A stretch of DNA of 33,599 nt from Steroidobacter sp. GTDB taxonomy: Bacteria > Pseudomonadota > Gammaproteobacteria > Steroidobacterales > Steroidobacteraceae. Positions within the stretch are counted from its first letter, which is position 1, and the number at the start of each line of letters is the position of its first letter. The notes beneath the pieces are model-generated. The model did not search any database. It saw nothing but the letters and a program-made list of their open reading frames with translations, and was not told where the DNA came from. Of this stretch, positions 7,822 to 19,527 are shown piece by piece. The stretch is from NCBI RefSeq assembly GCF_016790065.1, contig NZ_JAEUPY010000426.1:1-33599 (forward strand), written 5' to 3'. The translations under genes were made by a program, and so were the position numbers.

Positions 7822-8095
7822 GAAGTGCGCAGCCGTCAACATGGTGTCCGATGGGTTCTCAGCGGGTGCCCCCATCGTCCTGGGGAGGTCCATGTAACGA
7901 GTTGCGCAGGGTTCGATAAAAACTTCAGTCCTTCGACGATCCAGGCTCACAAACCAGGCTCACAAACCAAGATCAATGAGCCGGTGCATTGGAACCTGAA
8001 CGCCCCAACCGGTGCGCAGGATCCTGAGTATGTTCCGTGATTCAGTGATGAATTCGTTTCGGCCGTTACGGACAGACAGCGGACTGTCGCCTCGC
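7822..8095. other. Non-coding gap between terminator and receiver gene
   Basis: Together with the terminator this makes 336 bases without a convincing gene. The only open frames are short, have no ribosome site and give low-complexity products. It holds a small tandem duplication (7941-7966) and a weak 5-bp hairpin (GACAG/CTGTC, 8075-8088) just beyond the stop of the minus-strand receiver gene, which might act as a weak terminator. Nothing else is recognisable. Confidence 0.5.
7941..7966. repeat. 13-bp perfect tandem duplication
   Basis: The unit CCAGGCTCACAAA occurs twice head to tail, followed by a partial third copy (CCA). It lies in non-coding DNA and is probably a replication-slippage product; no function is suggested. 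Confidence 0.8.
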
Positions 8096-8476
8096 TCAAG
8101 CCGCATCGATCTGTAACAACACCTCGCGAACCTTGTGAAACTCCGAAGCCTTGTCGAAGAAATGATCCGCGCCACACTCGCGGCTCGCAATCCGGTAATC
8201 ATCTGATGGATGGTTGGTAACCACGATCACCGCCTCGGGTCGGCTGCGGCTGGTACGCAGTTGCTTCAACACCTGAAAGCCGCTGCCGCCTCGTAGCTGG
8301 ATGTCCAGAATCAGCACGCGCGGTTGCCACTGCCGCATGCCTTCCAGCGCGGCAGCAACCGCATCGGCGCTGCCTACTACCTTGGCGTTGGGAATGTCGC
8401 CGACGGCTTCGACCAGGCGTTCCATGACCGCGGGCGAATCCTCAACGATGTATATCGTCAGTTCGGATCCGGCCAT
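8096..8476 (-). CDS. Single-domain response regulator (receiver only)
   Basis: A 126-residue CheY-like receiver with no output domain. Visible residues are the acidic pair Glu12-Asp13 (YIVEDSP), phospho-acceptor Asp58 (VLILDIQL), Thr87 (VIVVTNHP) and Lys109 (FFDKASEF), so phosphorylation should be possible. The Glu-Asp form of the acidic pair is a tolerated variant. It is the last gene of the minus-strand signalling cluster, 77 bases after the LuxR-type regulator. It may compete for phosphate from, or report on, the same kinase. No strong ribosome site is visible. Confidence 0.9.
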   Translation of the reverse strand: MAGSELTIYIVEDSPAVMERLVEAVGDIPNAKVVGSADAVAAALEGMRQWQPRVLILDIQLRGGSGFQVLKQLRTSRSRPEAVIVVTNHPSDDYRIASRECGADHFFDKASEFHKVREVLLQIDAA

Positions 8477-8553
8477 GATATGGGCTCAGGCTCGATCACT
8501 GTCGCGAGGCGAGCAATCCGTCGGCTCATCCCCCGGCCTCCAGCTAGTGCGGC

Positions 8554-9258
8554 TCACTCCACCAATTGATTGCGGACTGCATAGGCCGCGATCTCGGCGT
8601 TGCTGCGCATTCCCATCTTTTCGAGAATGCGCGCGCGATAAGTGCTCACGGTCTTGACGCTGAGGCCGAGCTCGTTGGCCATGACGGCCGGCGAGACGCC
8701 GCGCGCAATTCGAGTGAACACCTGCAGCTCGCGCTCGGAGAGCCGGTTGTGCATCGGGCCTTCTTCATCGGCCGCACACTCGGAAGCCAATAGCTCGGCC
8801 ACCAGCGGCGTGATGTAGCGGCGCCCGGTGCCGACCGCTCGCACGGCCTTCACCAGCTCCTCCGGCACGATCATCTTCGGCACATAGCCGTTGGCGCCGG
8901 CACGCATCAGGCGCACAGCAAAGCTGCGCTCCGGATGCATGCTCAACACCAATATCGCCAGCTCCGGCTGATCGCGCTTCAACTGCTTCAGCAGATCGAT
9001 GCCGCTCTGGCCGGGCAGCGTGATGTCCAGCACCACCACTTCCACTTGCAAGCCATTGCGCAACTGCTGAAGCGCGTCCTCGGCGGAGCCGGCTTCGGCG
9101 ACCACCTGCAGGTCCTGTTCTTCAGACAGCATCTCGCGCACACCGGCGCGCAAGATGGCATGGTCGTCGACGATCAGTACGCGGATCGGCGTATGCATGG
9201 CCTGAAACGCATCCCTAGCTTCGTTTTCCCGCGGGGCTAAATCGGTTGGGTTCAACAT
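8554..9258 (-). CDS. NarL/FixJ-type response regulator (receiver + LuxR HTH)
   Basis: A 234-residue transcription factor. The receiver domain (about residues 25-145) has Asp31-Asp32 (IVDDHAILRAG), phospho-acceptor Asp78 (VVLDITLPGQSG), Ser106 and Lys128 (GYVPKM). The LuxR-type HTH (about residues 172-230) shows LSERELQVFTRIARG, then SVKTVSTYRARILEKMG. It resembles the UvrY/GacA/NarL group. The start at 9258 overlaps the stop of the Fis-type gene by seven bases, suggesting coupled translation. The ATG at 9198 (MHTPIRVLIVDDH) gives the more usual family N-terminus and remains possible. Its likely partner is the CHASE3 kinase two genes upstream. Confidence 0.93.
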   Translation of the reverse strand: MLNPTDLAPRENEARDAFQAMHTPIRVLIVDDHAILRAGVREMLSEEQDLQVVAEAGSAEDALQQLRNGLQVEVVVLDITLPGQSGIDLLKQLKRDQPELAILVLSMHPERSFAVRLMRAGANGYVPKMIVPEELVKAVRAVGTGRRYITPLVAELLASECAADEEGPMHNRLSERELQVFTRIARGVSPAVMANELGLSVKTVSTYRARILEKMGMRSNAEIAAYAVRNQLVE

Positions 9259-12339: not shown

Positions 12340-12422
12340 ATGGTGAATCCGAATCGGACGGCGCTGCGTATAACCCTGCGCTTCGGCTTCGAAGCGTCCA
12401 CTCTTCACGAGGAATGGCAGCG

Positions 12423-12680
12423 ATGACCTACGGCAAGAAACTTTCCACTCTGGCATTGGCCACCGCCGCCGCGGTGCTGTTCAGCAGCGCGCCGCTGACG
12501 GCCGCCAAAGCAGCGGATGAAGCCAAGGTGAAATGCGAAGGCGTGAACGCGTGCAAAGGCACCAGCGCCTGTGGCACGGCGAGCAACGCCTGTGCCGGCA
12601 AGAATGCCTGCAAGGGCACCGGCTTCTTGATGTTGAGCAAGGCTGAATGCGACGCCGCCAAGGCCAAGCTGAAGAAATAA
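12423..12680 (+). CDS. bufA: Bufferin-type RiPP precursor (BufA2-like metallophore)
   Basis: An 85-residue precursor with a Sec signal peptide ending LTAAKA (cleavage about residue 30) and a short mature part with six cysteines (38, 44, 50, 57, 63, 76). Five lie in a regular array (CEG, CKG, CGT, CAG, CKG). This is the look of BufA2-type bufferins, secreted peptides in which cysteines are turned into thiooxazoles by a DUF692 enzyme and which bind copper in the periplasm; that chemistry is family knowledge. The DUF692 and DUF2063 genes directly downstream support it. ATG at 12423 has GAGGA nine bases upstream; the ATG at 12414 overlaps that site and is less likely. The preceding terminator implies its own promoter between 12340 and 12410. 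Confidence 0.85.
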   Translation: MTYGKKLSTLALATAAAVLFSSAPLTAAKAADEAKVKCEGVNACKGTSACGTASNACAGKNACKGTGFLMLSKAECDAAKAKLKK

Positions 12681-12746
12681 CTTCGGGCCTGGCCCGGTCC
12701 GATGATTTATCGTGCCGCTTCTCCCAAGCGGCCCATCGGAACCCCA

Positions 12747-12775
12747 AGCAGGGCGGCGGCTGCGGCCGCCCTGCT
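12747..12775 (+). promoter_or_regulatory. Perfect 11-bp hairpin between bufA and bufB
   Basis: AGCAGGGCGGC (12747-12757) and GCCGCCCTGCT (12765-12775) form an exact 11-bp stem with a seven-base loop. It sits in the 114-bp gap between the precursor gene and the GTG of bufB. There is no T run after it. It is therefore more likely an mRNA-stabilising or attenuating hairpin that keeps precursor mRNA in excess over enzyme mRNA than a full terminator. Confidence 0.65.
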
Positions 12776-12794
12776 GTTCACTCGAGACTGTGAC

Positions 12795-13643
12795 GTGCCC
12801 AAATCGCCTGCGACCTCGCTCGGCTTCGGCCTAGGCGTCCGCCCGGTTCACTACGAGGCCCTGCTCGGTGAACGCAAGGGCAGCGTCAGCTGGCTGGAAG
12901 CTTTGACTGAAAACTACCTGCTGCCGGGTGGCCGGCCGCTGCATTACCTGGAACGGCTGCGCGCCGAATACCCGATCGTGCTGCATGGAGTGTCGCTCTC
13001 CATCGGCAGCACCGACCCGCTGAACGAAAGCTACTTGCGCGAAGTGAAAGCGCTCGCCGACCGCATCGAGCCGACCTGGGTGTCGGATCACCTGTGCTGG
13101 ACTGGCGTCGACGGCGTCAATCTGCACGATCTGATGCCGCTGCCGTTCACCGAAACGGCGTTACGCCACGTAGTCTCGCGGATCGCCGCCGTCCAGGAGC
13201 GGCTCGGCCAGCGTCTGGTGCTGGAGAACGTGTCGAGCTATGTGAGCTTCAGCAGCTCGGACATGACCGAGTGGGAATTCCTGCGCGAAATCGCCGAACG
13301 CGCCGACTGTAAGTTATTGCTGGATGTGAACAACGTTTACGTCAGCAGCGTCAATCATGGCTTCGACCCCATGACCTATTTGCGCGGCCTCCCGGTGGAA
13401 CGCGTCCAGCAGTTTCATCTCGCCGGTCATCGCAACATGGGCGACTATCTCATCGATACTCACGACGAACCGGTGTGCGAAGCCGTGTGGCAGTTGTTTC
13501 ATGCGGCCGTCGAACGGTTCGGCCCGGTGGCCACCATGATCGAGCGCGACGACAACATTCCCGAGCTGGACGAGTTGCTCACCGAACTCGAGCGCGCTCG
13601 AAACATCACTCAGGCAGCGCAGATGTCGAAGTCAGCCGCATGA
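12795..13643 (+). CDS. bufB: DUF692 multinuclear iron enzyme, bufferin maturase BufB
   Basis: A 282-residue TIM-barrel protein of the DUF692 (MbnB/TglH/BufB) family. These iron enzymes modify cysteines in RiPP precursors, acting with a partner protein in the cytoplasm. Residues likely to bind the metals are visible: His64 (LHGVSLSIGS), Asp98-His99 (VSDHLCW), Glu144 (VLENVSSY), Asp177/Asn180 (LLDVNNVYV), His188, His208 and His212 (FHLAGH), and Asp221/His223/Glu225 (DTHDE). The open frame runs further upstream, but the first 31 residues do not resemble the family. The GTG at 12795 gives the normal length and the family start FGLGVRPVHYEALL. It overlaps bufC by four bases (ATGA). Confidence 0.92.
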   Translation: MPKSPATSLGFGLGVRPVHYEALLGERKGSVSWLEALTENYLLPGGRPLHYLERLRAEYPIVLHGVSLSIGSTDPLNESYLREVKALADRIEPTWVSDHLCWTGVDGVNLHDLMPLPFTETALRHVVSRIAAVQERLGQRLVLENVSSYVSFSSSDMTEWEFLREIAERADCKLLLDVNNVYVSSVNHGFDPMTYLRGLPVERVQQFHLAGHRNMGDYLIDTHDEPVCEAVWQLFHAAVERFGPVATMIERDDNIPELDELLTELERARNITQAAQMSKSAA

Positions 13644-14428
13644 GCGCTGAAATCGACAGCCGCGCGCTGGCGGACCTGCAGCGAGATTTTCAGCGCCATG
13701 TGATGCATGGTCATGAGCGCATCGTCGATGCGGTCGAAGGCACGGAACGCGTGCCGGCGACGCTGCGGCTCGCGGTCTATTCCGACGCTTATCGTTTGCG
13801 CCTGACTGAAGCGCTCGCCAGCACCCTGCCCCGGCTGCAACAGCTGATGGGCAAGGAGCCGTTCGCGACGCTCGCGAACCAATACATCGACCTGAGTCCG
13901 TCGACTTATCCTTCGATTCGCTGGTTCGGCGATCGCGTGCCCGTGTTACTGCGTCGGTCGTTTCCCGAGCAACCATGGTTGGCGGAGCTCGCCGAGTGGG
14001 AGTGGGCCATCGCCGCCGCTTTCGACGGCGCCGATGCCGCGCCGGTGGGCATCGAAGCCTTAGCCACAGTCCCACCGGAGCGCTGGCCGGAGTTGCGCTT
14101 CCAATTTCATCCGACAGTGCAGTGCCTGCAGGTGCGGACCAATGCGCCGGTGTTATTCAAGGCGCTGTCAGCAGATGCCCCGCTGCCCGAGTGCGTCAGT
14201 CTCTCCGAGCCGCAGAGCTGGCTGATCTGGCGCGAACAGTTGAAGACACAATATCGGTCGCTCGCTGCTGACGAAGCCGCGGCACTGACACTTATGCGCG
14301 CCGACGGCACCTTCGAGACCCTGTGCGACACGCTGTGTACCTGGCACGAAGCGGATACCGTGCCCGCGCAAGCCGCCGGCATGCTGAAGCGCTGGGTGGT
14401 CGAGCAAATGATCGTCGGAGTATCCTAG
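13640..14428 (+). CDS. bufC: DUF2063 family partner protein BufC
   Basis: A 262-residue protein with the N-terminal DUF2063 (HvfC/BufC) domain: LADLQRDFQRHVM, then RLAVYSDAYRLRLTEALAST, LMGKEPFATLANQYI and PSTYPSIRWFGDRVP. A less conserved C-terminal half follows. In bufferin and related systems this protein is the partner of the DUF692 enzyme and is thought to deliver the precursor; that is family knowledge. The ATG at 13640 overlaps the bufB stop as ATGA, the classical coupled-translation arrangement. The open frame upstream of it is only a shadow of bufB. An imperfect hairpin (GCGGCC/GGCCGC) overlaps the stop and may mark the operon end. Confidence 0.9.
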   Translation: MSAEIDSRALADLQRDFQRHVMHGHERIVDAVEGTERVPATLRLAVYSDAYRLRLTEALASTLPRLQQLMGKEPFATLANQYIDLSPSTYPSIRWFGDRVPVLLRRSFPEQPWLAELAEWEWAIAAAFDGADAAPVGIEALATVPPERWPELRFQFHPTVQCLQVRTNAPVLFKALSADAPLPECVSLSEPQSWLIWREQLKTQYRSLAADEAAALTLMRADGTFETLCDTLCTWHEADTVPAQAAGMLKRWVVEQMIVGVS

Positions 14429-15889: not shown

Positions 15890-16696
15890 ATGAAGCAATC
15901 CGGGAGTCTGGTGTGCGTCGGAATCGGCATGACGCTCGGTTCGCACCTCACTCCTCTGGCTCGGGATCACATCGAGAACGCCGATGTAGTGTTCACGGGC
16001 CTGTCCGACGGCATCGTCGAGATGTGGATCGCCGGCATGAATGCCGACGTGCGCAGCCTTCAGTCGCTGTATCAGGAAGGCAAGTCGCGCATGGAAACCT
16101 ACCGCGACATGGTCGAAACCTTGCTCACCGAAGTGCGGGCGGGCAAGCGCGTTTGTGCCGCATTTTACGGCCACCCCGGCGTGTTCGCCTGGCCCACTCA
16201 CAAGGCGATCGAAATCGCACGCAGCGAAGGTTATAGCGCGCACATGGAGCCGGGTGTGTCCGCTGCCGATTGTATGTACGCGGATCTAGGCTTCGATCCC
16301 GGCAAGTATGGCTGCCAGCACTACGAAGCCAGCCAGTTCATGTTCAATCGCCGTCGGGTCGATACCGGCGCTTATTTGATCCTGTGGCAGGTCGGACTGT
16401 CAGGCGATCAATCGCTGGCGCGATTCTCCACCGGCGCGGCGTATCGTCAGGTGCTGGTCGATGTTTTGAATCGCGACTATCCACTGACCCACGAAGTCAT
16501 CCTGTATCAAGCAGCGACCTTGCCCACTTTCCGCCCCACCATCGTTCGGGTGCCACTGGCGGAGCTGCCCGACGCCGAAGCAGATATGCATTACACGCTG
16601 GTGATTCCACCGGCCCAGTCGTTGCAACCGGACCATCACATCCGCGATCGGCTGTCCGCACTCGATCGCAAATTCACACCGGCCGCGCAAAGCTGA
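15890..16696 (+). CDS. Split-borosin peptide alpha-N-methyltransferase
   Basis: A 268-residue SAM enzyme of the tetrapyrrole methylase fold, in the branch that N-methylates peptide backbones (OphMA in fungi, SonM in Shewanella). Diagnostic stretches are GSLVCVGIGMTLGSHLT, FYGHPGVFAWPTHKAIEIA, PGVSAADCMYADLGFDPG and GCQHYEASQFMFN. The OphMA catalytic residues Tyr66, Arg72, Tyr76 and Tyr98 correspond here to Tyr61, Arg67, Tyr71 and Tyr93 with one constant offset. There is no C-terminal core peptide, so it must act in trans on a separate precursor, for which the gene at 17406-17705 is the candidate. It starts 17 bases after maiA and ends 11 bases before the GNAT gene. A porphyrin or corrin methylase is the alternative reading, but the motifs above are not those of cobalamin or siroheme enzymes. 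Confidence 0.92.
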   Translation: MKQSGSLVCVGIGMTLGSHLTPLARDHIENADVVFTGLSDGIVEMWIAGMNADVRSLQSLYQEGKSRMETYRDMVETLLTEVRAGKRVCAAFYGHPGVFAWPTHKAIEIARSEGYSAHMEPGVSAADCMYADLGFDPGKYGCQHYEASQFMFNRRRVDTGAYLILWQVGLSGDQSLARFSTGAAYRQVLVDVLNRDYPLTHEVILYQAATLPTFRPTIVRVPLAELPDAEADMHYTLVIPPAQSLQPDHHIRDRLSALDRKFTPAAQS

Positions 16697-16707
16697 GCCC
16701 CGGCAGC

Positions 16708-17316
16708 ATGCACGTATTTCCGGTCGAGACTGCGCGTTTACAGATGCGACCGCTCACCGCCGGCGACGCGTGGCTGTACCAACATCTGTACAGCGATGCC
16801 GACACCATGCGTTTCATCGGCACGCCACTGTCGCCTGAACATGCCGCCAAAAGTTTTCAGAGCGCCCTGGCCGGGATGCAACGGCGACCCATCGAGCGCC
16901 TGTTTCTGACAGTGACAGAGAAGGCCACCCGCAGCGACGTAGGGATTTGCAGCCTGCAAAACTTCGACGAGCAGCAGCGCTGTGTACAAGCCGGCGTCAT
17001 GTTCGTGGCCTCGGCGCGCGCCCAGGGCTATTCCAAAGAAAGCTTCATCGGCCTGATTCAGCAAGTGTTTGTCGAACTGCCGGTGGATGAGCTGTGGGTG
17101 CAGTTCGCTGTGAACCACGTGGCTGTGCAGCGGGCAGTGCTTAGCGTAGGCTTTGCACGCCGACAGGACTCGGCCCGGCAAGAAGGATCTCGCCAAGGGA
17201 GTGCGCCAAGCCATGCAACCAATCATCCCCCCTCAGCTGCAATCGATGGGCAGCCCACCGCCTGGGCGGTGCGCCGCGAATCGTGGTCGCCGTCCGCCCT
17301 CCGGAACGCGCAGTAA
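16708..17316 (+). CDS. GNAT family acetyltransferase in the borosin locus
   Basis: A 202-residue protein. Residues 1-150 form an Acetyltransf_3-type GNAT domain. It begins VETARLQMRPLTAGDAWLYQ, with an acetyl-CoA-binding region near SARAQGYSKESFIGLIQQ and a final strand-helix ELWVQFAVNHVAVQRAVLSVGFAR. This matches the RimJ/RimL-like pattern in which small molecules or peptide N-termini are acylated. The last 50 residues are Ser/Pro/Ala/Arg-rich and look disordered. The ATG at 16708 lies 11 bases after the methyltransferase stop. The open frame reaching back to 16270 is a shadow of the methyltransferase. Its place between methyltransferase and precursor suggests it could tailor the peptide, which is inference. 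Confidence 0.85.
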   Translation: MHVFPVETARLQMRPLTAGDAWLYQHLYSDADTMRFIGTPLSPEHAAKSFQSALAGMQRRPIERLFLTVTEKATRSDVGICSLQNFDEQQRCVQAGVMFVASARAQGYSKESFIGLIQQVFVELPVDELWVQFAVNHVAVQRAVLSVGFARRQDSARQEGSRQGSAPSHATNHPPSAAIDGQPTAWAVRRESWSPSALRNAQ

Positions 17317-17390
17317 CCCACCGAAACAGGCATAATTAAGTTAAGTCGCGCGCACAGACGCGGGCGATGCAAGCAATAAACAACTTGGGG

Positions 17391-17397
17391 AAGGAGG
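17391..17397 (+). promoter_or_regulatory. Strong Shine-Dalgarno site for the borosin precursor
   Basis: AAGGAGG, a near-perfect anti-16S complement, lies eight bases before the GTG at 17406. It fixes the precursor start at this GTG instead of the ATG at 17367, which has no ribosome site. It is one of the strongest ribosome sites in the window, fitting a gene that must be made in excess over its modifying enzyme. Confidence 0.8.
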
Positions 17398-17405
17398 AAA
17401 CCATC

Positions 17406-17705
17406 GTGTCCAATGTCGTCGATTGGTTGGCAAGGATCGGTCAGAGCTCGCGACTGCAAGCACTCAGCGGCGAACAACTGGCGCAGGAACTGGCCCGCGC
17501 CGGCCTCGAGCCCGCGGTGCAAGCGGCCATCGTCCAGCAACGCCGGCACCAGCTCGAACAGCTGATCGGCGCCAGCAAGAACGTCTGTTGCCTGATCCAT
17601 GCGCCGCAGGACGAAGAGCCTGAGGAGCAAACACCCGAGGACGATAAGAGCCTCGCCCTGTCGGCCCCGTCCGATGCCGCGCATCGTGTCGCCCGCGCCG
17701 GTTGA
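17406..17705 (+). CDS. Candidate split-borosin precursor peptide
   Basis: A 99-residue peptide. Residues 4-56 form a helical leader (VVDWLARIGQSSRLQAL, then LAQELARAGLEPAVQAAIV, then HQLEQLIGAS). As I recall it, this aligns in length and pattern with the borosin-binding domain of SonA (a DFFTQLGQDAQL-like start and a helix ending just before the core). The putative core is NVCCLIHAP (59-67), whose hydrophobic-hydrophobic-x-His pattern resembles the SonA core YLVISH. A long acidic, Pro-rich stretch follows (68-80), then a Ser/Ala/Arg tail. The GTG start is set by AAGGAGG. It lies 89 bases after the GNAT gene on the same strand as the methyltransferase. Which residues are methylated and where the peptide is cut cannot be seen. 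Confidence 0.8.
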   Translation: MSNVVDWLARIGQSSRLQALSGEQLAQELARAGLEPAVQAAIVQQRRHQLEQLIGASKNVCCLIHAPQDEEPEEQTPEDDKSLALSAPSDAAHRVARAG

Positions 17706-19527
17706 ATCATCGCGTGTCCGACTAGATTCCGTCCGGCACTGGTGGCTGGGCGGAATCGCTCATTTGTGTTTATTGGTGGCTGCCGTGCCGGCACTCGCCA
17801 TCGGCGCCGAGGATTTCACCGGCCTGTTGCAGCGGGCGGACGCCATGAAAAGCGTCAACCCGGTCGAGTTCGTGCGCCTGCTGGATAACCTGCACGAGCA
17901 ACAGACCCAACTGTCCGAGTCGCAGCGCGAGCACCTTCAATATCTCCAAGGCTGGCGTCATGCCTATGCCGGCGAATACGCCGCCGCCATACCTTTGCTG
18001 GAATCCATCGTCGACAAGGCCTCCGATCCGACGCTGCAGTTTCGTGCCGGCTCGACTGCCACCAATGTCCGCGCGCTGTCCGCGCAATACGAAGGCGCTT
18101 TCCTGCAACTCAACAAACTGTTGAACAAGCTGCCGGAAGTCACCGACCAGGACGCGCGCTTGCAAGGCATGTCGGTGGCCGCCGATTTATATGTATTGGT
18201 CGGCGAGTACGATCTGGGCATCCACTACGCCGAACAAGTGGTCAAAGAAAACGCTCGCGGTCGCGGCGTTTGTCGCGGCGAGCAAATCCGCCTCGACGCG
18301 CTGTGTAAGAGCAAACGCATCACGGCCGACAATCCCGATTTGCAGACCGCGGTCAACGCCTGCTTGTCGCAAGGCGAGTCGCTGGCTGCCAATGCCATCC
18401 GCACCACCCAGGCGCGTTTGTTCCTGAGAGAACATCGGCTGGACGAAGCCATTGCATTGCTCGAACGTCATTACGGCGAGGTCGAGCAATCGCGCTATCC
18501 ACGCGGCATCTCCGAATGGGAATCGCTGATGGCGCAGGCGTATCAACAACGCGGCTCGGGCAACGTCGCGCAGCGTTTGGCACTCCGCTCGGTCGAGCAC
18601 AGCGTGAAGGATCAGTTCACGCAGCCGTTGGTCGGCGCATATCGCGTGCTGTATGAAGAAGCCGAGAAACACGGCGACATTGCTAACGCCATCGCTTATC
18701 TGAAGAAATCCGCGCGCGCCGACAAGGCTTATCTCGACGACGTGACCGCGCGTCAGTTGGCGTATGAGCGAGTCAAATCGAACACGCTGTCCGCCAAATC
18801 TCAGATCGAAGCGCTCAATCAAGAAAACAAACTGTTGCAGCTACAACGCGAGCTGGACAGCAAGGCCGCCGAAACCAGCCGCCTGTACATTGCGCTACTG
18901 ATGCTGGTGGTGGTGTTCATCGCGCTGTGGGCTTATCGCACCAAACGTTCGCAGCTGCATTTCATGAAGCTGTCGCAGGTGGACAGCCTGACCGGCATTT
19001 CCAATCGGCCGCGTTTCATTCAGCTCGCCGAAGGCGTGTTGGAAAACGCACGCAAGTCGCAACAGCAAGCCAGCGTCGTGCTGTGCGATCTGGATCATTT
19101 CAAAGCCATCAATGACCGTTGCGGTCACGCGGCCGGCGACCATGTATTGCGCCAGGCGGTGATGGCTTGTCAGACGCACCTGCGCGTCAGCGACATCTTC
19201 GGCCGGGTCGGCGGCGAGGAGTTCGGCATCGTGCTGCCAGGCTGCGGCCTGGAGGATGCCAAACAACGCGCCGAACGGTTGCGCCAGGCCTTGAGCAGCA
19301 TCGATCCAATGTTCGAAGGCGAGCGCTGCCCGGTGTCGGCCAGCTTCGGCGTCACCTCCACCGAAATCTCGGGCTACGAGCTCCGCCAATTGCTGGCCCA
19401 TGCCGACGCAGCCCTGTATCGGGCCAAGGCCGCCGGCCGCGATCGGGTCATGCCGTTCGACGGCGCCCTCGCCGACAAGCCGGCGGTTGCCATCGGCGAG
19501 GCACTACGCAACGTCGGGCACGCCTAG
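17674..19527 (+). CDS. Membrane diguanylate cyclase with TPR-like sensor region (GGDEF)
   Basis: A 617-residue protein. It has a signal or anchor segment near residues 25-43, a periplasmic region of TPR-like helical repeats (about 45-380), a coiled segment (QIEALNQENKLLQLQRELDS), and a membrane helix about 405-425. The GGDEF domain at the C-terminus carries an intact GGEEF active site (513-517). An RxxD inhibitory site (Arg504-Asp507) lies exactly five residues before it. It should make cyclic di-GMP and be feedback-inhibited. The chosen ATG lies inside the 3' end of the borosin precursor gene (32-base overlap, different frame); a GTG at 17686 is also possible. The far upstream start at 17599 is unlikely. 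Confidence 0.9.
   Translation: MPRIVSPAPVESSRVRLDSVRHWWLGGIAHLCLLVAAVPALAIGAEDFTGLLQRADAMKSVNPVEFVRLLDNLHEQQTQLSESQREHLQYLQGWRHAYAGEYAAAIPLLESIVDKASDPTLQFRAGSTATNVRALSAQYEGAFLQLNKLLNKLPEVTDQDARLQGMSVAADLYVLVGEYDLGIHYAEQVVKENARGRGVCRGEQIRLDALCKSKRITADNPDLQTAVNACLSQGESLAANAIRTTQARLFLREHRLDEAIALLERHYGEVEQSRYPRGISEWESLMAQAYQQRGSGNVAQRLALRSVEHSVKDQFTQPLVGAYRVLYEEAEKHGDIANAIAYLKKSARADKAYLDDVTARQLAYERVKSNTLSAKSQIEALNQENKLLQLQRELDSKAAETSRLYIALLMLVVVFIALWAYRTKRSQLHFMKLSQVDSLTGISNRPRFIQLAEGVLENARKSQQQASVVLCDLDHFKAINDRCGHAAGDHVLRQAVMACQTHLRVSDIFGRVGGEEFGIVLPGCGLEDAKQRAERLRQALSSIDPMFEGERCPVSASFGVTSTEISGYELRQLLAHADAALYRAKAAGRDRVMPFDGALADKPAVAIGEALRNVGHA

Follow-up and report, generated by a model that had tools for sequence, protein, structure and literature searches.

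A split-borosin locus in Steroidobacter and its genomic tie to a sensor diguanylate cyclase

Results

A split-borosin methyltransferase and its neighbours

The window, by which we mean the whole 33,599-nt stretch of Steroidobacter DNA analysed here (contig NZ_JAEUPY010000426.1), carries on its forward strand a methyltransferase (MT) gene at 15890–16696, a GNAT acetyltransferase gene at 16708–17316, a precursor peptide gene at 17406–17705 and the gene of a membrane diguanylate cyclase at 17674–19527, whose product we propose as the receptor of the borosin. The likely start of the cyclase gene, at 17674, overlaps the end of the precursor gene by about 32 nt; its longest open frame begins at 17599. 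An earlier note on this DNA had described a split-borosin locus with a separate precursor, and this description is borne out by the sequence, the catalytic residues and the predicted fold of the precursor. The MT, GNAT and precursor genes were found where the note had placed them; its account of the locus was nevertheless incomplete, since it had missed the adjoining sensor cyclase.

The MT (268 aa) belongs to the SonM family. A phmmer search of the PDB matched it to SonM with 253 bits (E 2.7e-74) and to OphMA-type chains with 157–170 bits (E 4e-49 to 5e-45), whereas the top corrin methylase reached 17 bits (E 0.025). Its superfamily-level Pfam match was PF00590, and no NCBIfam model scored above its cut-off, the best of them, YabN, reaching 45.8 bits where 525 are required. 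The earlier note had suggested weighing SonM and OphMA against the corrin methylases, and this comparison comes out on the borosin side; an identity as a corrin or porphyrin methylase is ruled out by scores far below those of SonM and OphMA in the PDB and NCBIfam.

The residues that the note had named as catalytic, Tyr61, Arg67, Tyr71 and Tyr93, align with SonM Tyr58, Arg67, Tyr71 and Tyr93, residues of SonM that were mutated in PMC8429565 (numbering of that paper). They are conserved in 112, 113, 112 and 112, respectively, of the 114 rows of an MT alignment in which the window sequence is present twice. With 268 aa against 263 aa for the SonM chain, and with its precursor encoded separately, the window MT has no fused core, as the note had stated. 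The closest named relatives of the MT come from Peristeroidobacter and Steroidobacter (88–89% identity). By its sequence the window MT is thus a split-borosin alpha-N-methyltransferase, which would methylate a peptide backbone in trans.

A second RiPP system lies just upstream, at 12414–14425 of the window, and is conserved in four Steroidobacter relatives (L001–L004). It consists of a BufA2-type bufferin precursor (NF050166) and a BufB MNIO maturase (NF050167), as identified with NCBIfam, together with an HvfC/DUF2063-like partner that scored below its NCBIfam cut-off.

The precursor peptide

The precursor gene encodes 99 aa and starts with GTG, 8 nt downstream of the ribosome binding site AAGGAGG (17391–17397); both GGAGG and GTG are conserved in L001–L004, in agreement with the note's view that a strong ribosome site fits a precursor. 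Over residues 1–70, differences from these four relatives at the first, second and third codon positions number 7/7/27, 8/7/28, 7/10/29 and 11/6/26. Since third-position changes dominate, and residues 56–70 show zero second-position changes, the precursor is coding and under constraint at the protein level. No signal peptide was seen in the precursor by inspection. A promoter scan found none against 0.9 expected by chance, and six terminator-like sites were found against 3.6 expected, neither count being informative.

AlphaFold, run with eight sequences, predicted helices at residues 3–13, 15–18, 22–31, 36–43 and 47–53. The mean pLDDT of the model is 69, with blocks of 75–89 within the first 60 residues and a low-confidence tail. 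We assign residues 1–53 (17406–17564) to a predicted borosin-binding domain (BBD), like the five-helix BBD that spans residues 1–53 of SonA in the main text of PMC8429565; a SonA-like BBD on a 99-residue downstream peptide is what the earlier note had proposed. In a Foldseek search with the precursor model SonA ranked first and SonA chains made up 11 of the 18 rows (TMt up to 0.79, best E 1.0); with E-values of 1 or more, this match is supporting rather than decisive. An HMM built on window-type precursor seeds detected the SonA-like peptide of locus L062 (E 1.4e-5). As a single sequence the window precursor had no match in the PDB with phmmer; the precursor profile matched SonA at 9e-27, a match that is not independent because the profile itself contains SonA-like rows. 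The same profile also gave matches to TALE repeats over 19 positions (28–46), none of which passed alone as a stretch, and these were treated as chance.

The predicted core comprises residues 56–67, ASKNVCCLIHAP (17571–17606), and is followed by an acidic tail at residues 68–80, QDEEPEEQTPEDD (17607–17645), which is modelled with low confidence and without a helix. The alignment with SonA-like peptides is free of gaps to column 68 save in three rows (L007, L214 and L224), and Leu63 of the window precursor therefore stands opposite position 63 of those peptides. In SonA, according to the main text of PMC8429565, the methylated residues are Leu63 and Ile65, and from these sites we infer those of the window core. 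The precursors of two other loci (L040 and L041) have long Lys-rich tails rather than acidic ones.

The GNAT gene is an optional partner

The GNAT (202 aa) falls in PF13302 (E 2.1e-18) and is RimJ/RimL-like, with a low score; its nearest PDB sequence, a putative ribosomal-protein-serine acetyltransferase, is a weak match (E 0.0095). A loose acetyl-CoA motif is present in 21 of 45 GNAT domains. Among the 74 loci whose MT is at least 45% identical to that of the window, 32 have a GNAT match within 2.6 kb of the MT, on its 5' or its 3' side, and in one of them (L136) on the opposite strand. MT and GNAT share one reading frame in L040 (7134–8591) and L041 (7591–8949, in MT orientation), and the fusion in L040 was confirmed with Pfam. 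No GNAT match was found in seven SonM-type loci (L207–L213). The GNAT is therefore a recurring but optional partner of the borosin MT, and we read it as a probable lineage-specific tailoring enzyme.

Cysteine was present in the extracted core at 18 GNAT loci and absent at 12, as compared with 9 and 28 loci without a GNAT (Fisher p 0.005), an association on which we do not rely because the automatic core extraction was wrong in many rows. Two loci show other arrangements of these genes. In L160 (6536–8716, in MT orientation) five BBD precursors lie between MT and sensor, with a second GNAT within the array; in L038 an AbiEii-like nucleotidyltransferase (8003–8671; PF08843, 1.1e-7) occupies the GNAT position between MT and precursor.

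A membrane diguanylate cyclase with a predicted TPR sensor domain

Counted from its likely start, the cyclase has 617 aa. A hydrophobic N-terminus is followed by a 360-residue sensor domain (17800–18879), a hydrophobic segment at the junction with the output domain (18883–18936), predicted from sequence and family hydropathy to be a transmembrane helix, and a GGDEF domain (18976–19446; PF00990 at 4.4e-42) with an intact GGEEF active site and an RxxD inhibitory site (RVSD-x5-GGEEF). GGEEF is kept in 117 of 119 members of the family and the RxxD site in 86. A hydrophobic segment precedes the sensor domain in 116 of 129 family members and follows it in 125 of 129, so that this domain should face the periplasm.

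The model of the sensor domain (pLDDT 91.3) is a helical superhelix with 76 Foldseek matches in the PDB at 0.001 or below, among which LGN chains rank at the top. Pheromone receptors are also matched, namely Rap with pheromone (7.3e-5, TM 0.61), Rap-CSF (1.1e-4, TM 0.62) and NprR-NprX (9.8e-5, TM 0.55). Pfam TPR models stayed below threshold in the window protein, and TPR_12 passes in its homologues at L207 and L235; no HTH domain was found in the window protein. The sensor occurs once only in its own genome, beside the borosin genes. Elsewhere the same domain also heads histidine kinases, GGDEF being the output at some loci and a kinase at others.

Sensor and methyltransferase occur together

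The most constant partner of the MT is this downstream TPR-sensor diguanylate cyclase, and not the GNAT. Among 97 genomes sampled from another family, f182, MT and sensor are both present in 62 and both absent in 35, and no genome has one without the other. Within these genomes 83 of 85 MTs have a sensor within 6 kb, which in 82 cases lies downstream on the same strand, and 99 of 123 sensors have an MT no more than 6 kb away. The Fisher value for this co-occurrence (p 3e-27) overstates independence because the genomes are related; we therefore put the weight on recurrence of the tie in separate families. It recurs in several families and in Pleionea, where the neighbours are otherwise different.

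Of the first 88 loci collected, a sensor lies near the MT in 73 of 74 with at least 45% MT identity, in 2 of 9 with 40–45% and in 0 of 5 below 40%, which leaves 12 of the 14 loci below 45% without a sensor. MT identity by itself does not separate loci with a sensor from those without one: MTs of only 38–43% identity from family f141, fetched later, do carry the sensor. The single exception among the 74 is L042; its genome (G141) also has no sensor match, and a short contig may therefore not explain it. In a further set the sensor was found at 6 of 9 loci; of the remaining three, two are f182 loci that have both an MT and a precursor, and the third is L241, from outside the class.

SonM-type and related loci carry the sensor in 20 of 20 cases. 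Seven SonM-like loci (L207–L213), whose MTs are 67–81% identical to SonM, have the order MT, SonA-like precursor and TPR-GGDEF sensor, with sensor and GGDEF on two ORFs in L211. Neither GGDEF nor kinase was detected in the sensors of L217, from the SonM-type and related set.

In family f141 (118 genomes, MT threshold 1e-20, genome tallies made by hand) there were sensor matches in 39 genomes and MT matches in 47: both in 35, MT only in 12, sensor only in 4 and neither in 67. Ten of the 12 MT-only genomes were examined (G545 and G760 among them, G735 and G746 being left out), and all ten have the sensor domain on a histidine kinase beside the MT. In four of these ten loci (L236, L237, L239 and L240) the next gene is an RR-GGDEF gene, which would return the output of a kinase-type sensor to c-di-GMP. 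The four sensor-only genomes gave no MT match at the 1e-20 threshold, and the stretches fetched from them hold neither an MT nor a precursor.

In the family of the window itself the sensor was found in 13 of 200 genomes, and 11 of these 13 have an MT of at least 66% identity. The contig of one genome (G135) begins with precursor and sensor, and in another (G096) the sensor stands alone on a 5.7-kb contig. Of the 20 genomes of this family with an MT at 1e-20, nine, G141 among them, have no sensor match; the MTs of these nine are of 41–47% identity.

Other borosin-like MTs were seen in the collection. The loci L043–L049 and L063–L067 encode distant ones (31–44% identity) with no recognisable precursor or sensor nearby. 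In L241 (6839–10363, reverse strand), which comes from outside the class, the MT makes up the N-terminal portion of a protein of 1174 residues; on inspection by eye the remainder contains a BBD-like stretch and repeated domains, as well as a hydrophobic segment and an end that is acidic, and no sensor match was found.

Precursor and sensor form a pair

A BBD precursor lies directly upstream of 103 of 129 sensor ORFs, with a median of 127 nt from the precursor stop to the sensor domain. Several of the 26 sensor ORFs without such a precursor are second, tandem sensors. Where no precursor had been detected between MT and sensor, the gap holds an ORF of at least 54 residues in 18 of 19 cases inspected, many of them BBD-like by eye; the gap in L226 holds a 32-residue ORF only, and short ORFs can arise by chance.

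In f182, 24 sensors have no MT within 6 kb, and 20 loci covering 21 of these sensors were fetched. In 16 of these 20 loci a precursor lies directly upstream of the sensor, with no MT there. These results suggest that precursor and sensor are a pair that mostly stays together, and that the MT can evidently work from elsewhere.

Distances between cores correlate with distances between sensors (Spearman 0.51) and between GGDEF domains (0.52) to a similar degree over 99 pairs. The partial correlation of core and sensor is 0.16 given GGDEF (0 of 200 permutations were as high) and 0.40 given BBD (99 pairs); that of core and GGDEF given sensor is 0.21. Specific coevolution of core and sensor was thus not found by distance correlations over these 99 pairs: the core–sensor correlation is no better than that of core and GGDEF, and the core thus shows no tie particular to the sensor domain. 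Precursor core, sensor and GGDEF evolve together as a unit.

Discussion

We propose that the operon encodes an N-methylated peptide signal together with its own receptor, with c-di-GMP as the output, and put the probability of this reading at roughly 60%. The MT would bind the precursor at the helical N-terminal domain and N-methylate the backbone of the short hydrophobic core (the NVCCLIH region). The product may then be acylated by the GNAT in this lineage, most likely on an amino group. No exporter or protease is evident in the operon, and factors presumably encoded elsewhere would cleave and export the peptide, which would resist proteases and be able to cross membranes. Once released, it could be bound by the periplasmic TPR superhelix of the downstream protein, which in the bound state would switch the cytoplasmic GGDEF domain and so change c-di-GMP. 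This reading rests on homologies, conserved catalytic residues, predicted folds, the gene overlap and the genomic tie, and from these we infer methylation, acylation, release, binding and signal output. One point against the receptor reading is how generic TPR folds are: LGN chains lead the PDB matches of the sensor domain. It is also weakened by the lack of a specific core–sensor correlation, by the borosin-type MTs that have no sensor (12 of 14 loci below 45% identity, nine MT genomes in the window's own family and two f182 loci with MT and precursor) and by the four sensor-only genomes of f141.

The chief rival to the receptor reading is that the sensor reads an outside, non-borosin cue and controls borosin production through its c-di-GMP, the peptide being secreted for some other use, for example metal binding or antagonism. 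Biosynthetic clusters often include their own regulator; the alternation of outputs between GGDEF and histidine kinase, the Cys residues in several cores, which could bind metal, and the bufferin-type metal-peptide operon just upstream are all in line with it. We nevertheless consider it unlikely, given that 16 of the 20 MT-distant sensor loci retain the precursor without the enzyme and that the fold of the sensor resembles peptide-binding TPRs, among others. In addition, each of the 35 f182 genomes that lack an MT also lacks the sensor, a pattern not required of a protein that senses a general cue.

The 32-nt gene overlap and the close pairing of precursor and sensor would also suit two proteins that contact each other: the BBD or the acidic tail, tuned by methylation, might regulate the cyclase directly inside the cell or at the membrane, with nothing released. 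An operon without an evident protease or exporter fits this arrangement, as do tails that vary from acidic to Lys-rich (in L040 and L041). It appears quite improbable to us, since the TPR domain should be periplasmic, judging by the hydrophobic segments on its two sides (116 and 125 of 129), and the precursor has no signal peptide. Finally, the cyclase could be a neighbour of an ordinary split-borosin cluster by inherited synteny, with no functional link. The Steroidobacter relatives L001–L004 are indeed syntenic far to both sides, from the bufferin operon to a two-component system; even so we give this explanation hardly any credence, because the same tie is found in several families and Pleionea despite different neighbours, because MT and sensor are jointly present or absent in 97 genomes, and because the sole sensor copy of the window's own genome sits beside the borosin genes.

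The receptor reading may extend beyond this locus. It is about an even bet that many gammaproteobacterial split borosins, those of SonA type included, are N-methylated signals, each with its own periplasmic-TPR receptor that acts on c-di-GMP either directly, through GGDEF, or via a kinase and RR-GGDEF. If so, they would make up a Gram-negative signalling class, the membrane counterpart of the RRNPP pheromone systems. The tie to the sensor turns the purpose of bacterial borosins into a simple question, namely whether the peptide switches the adjacent cyclase; if it does, N-methylation of the peptide backbone plays a part in signalling by bacteria, and a class of ligand is found for TPR-GGDEF proteins. 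Our literature search found no paper joining borosins with diguanylate; the main borosin surveys (Imani 2022, Cho 2022) lay outside its scope and may already have remarked on the sensor tie. GGDEF, histidine kinase and tetratricopeptide do not occur in the main text of PMC8429565.

The window locus is a variant of the known split borosins, new in its acidic tail and its GNAT. With SonM/SonA of Shewanella oneidensis (type IV), as presented in the main text of PMC8429565, it shares a separate MT, the same catalytic residues and a predicted five-helix BBD, and the spacing from BBD to core in the window precursor is also the same. It differs from SonA in its core, NVCCLIHAP, and in an acidic tail some 30 residues long where SonA has a short end, and from the SonM-type loci L207–L213 in having a GNAT gene. 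The MT domain is also that of the fused fungal borosins such as OphMA (about 1e-46); unlike OphMA, the window MT carries no fused clasp or core, and its substrate is supplied in trans. The window GNAT belongs to the PF13302 family, like the RimJ/RimL N-terminal acetyltransferases, and is set apart from them by being linked, and elsewhere sometimes fused, to a borosin MT. GNATs acting on RiPPs exist.

RRNPP receptors are soluble cytoplasmic regulators, mostly with an HTH domain, and the peptide genes of Rap and NprR lie near the receptor gene. The window sensor resembles Rap and NprR in its predicted TPR superhelix (Foldseek TM about 0.5–0.6, at an identity of about 12–13%). In contrast to RRNPP receptors, its TPR domain is predicted to be periplasmic and is linked through the membrane to GGDEF or, in other loci, to a histidine kinase, with no HTH found, and in contrast to RRNPP peptides the window peptide is by prediction an N-methylated RiPP. 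The window sensor is therefore not a member of the RRNPP family, though it may work alike.
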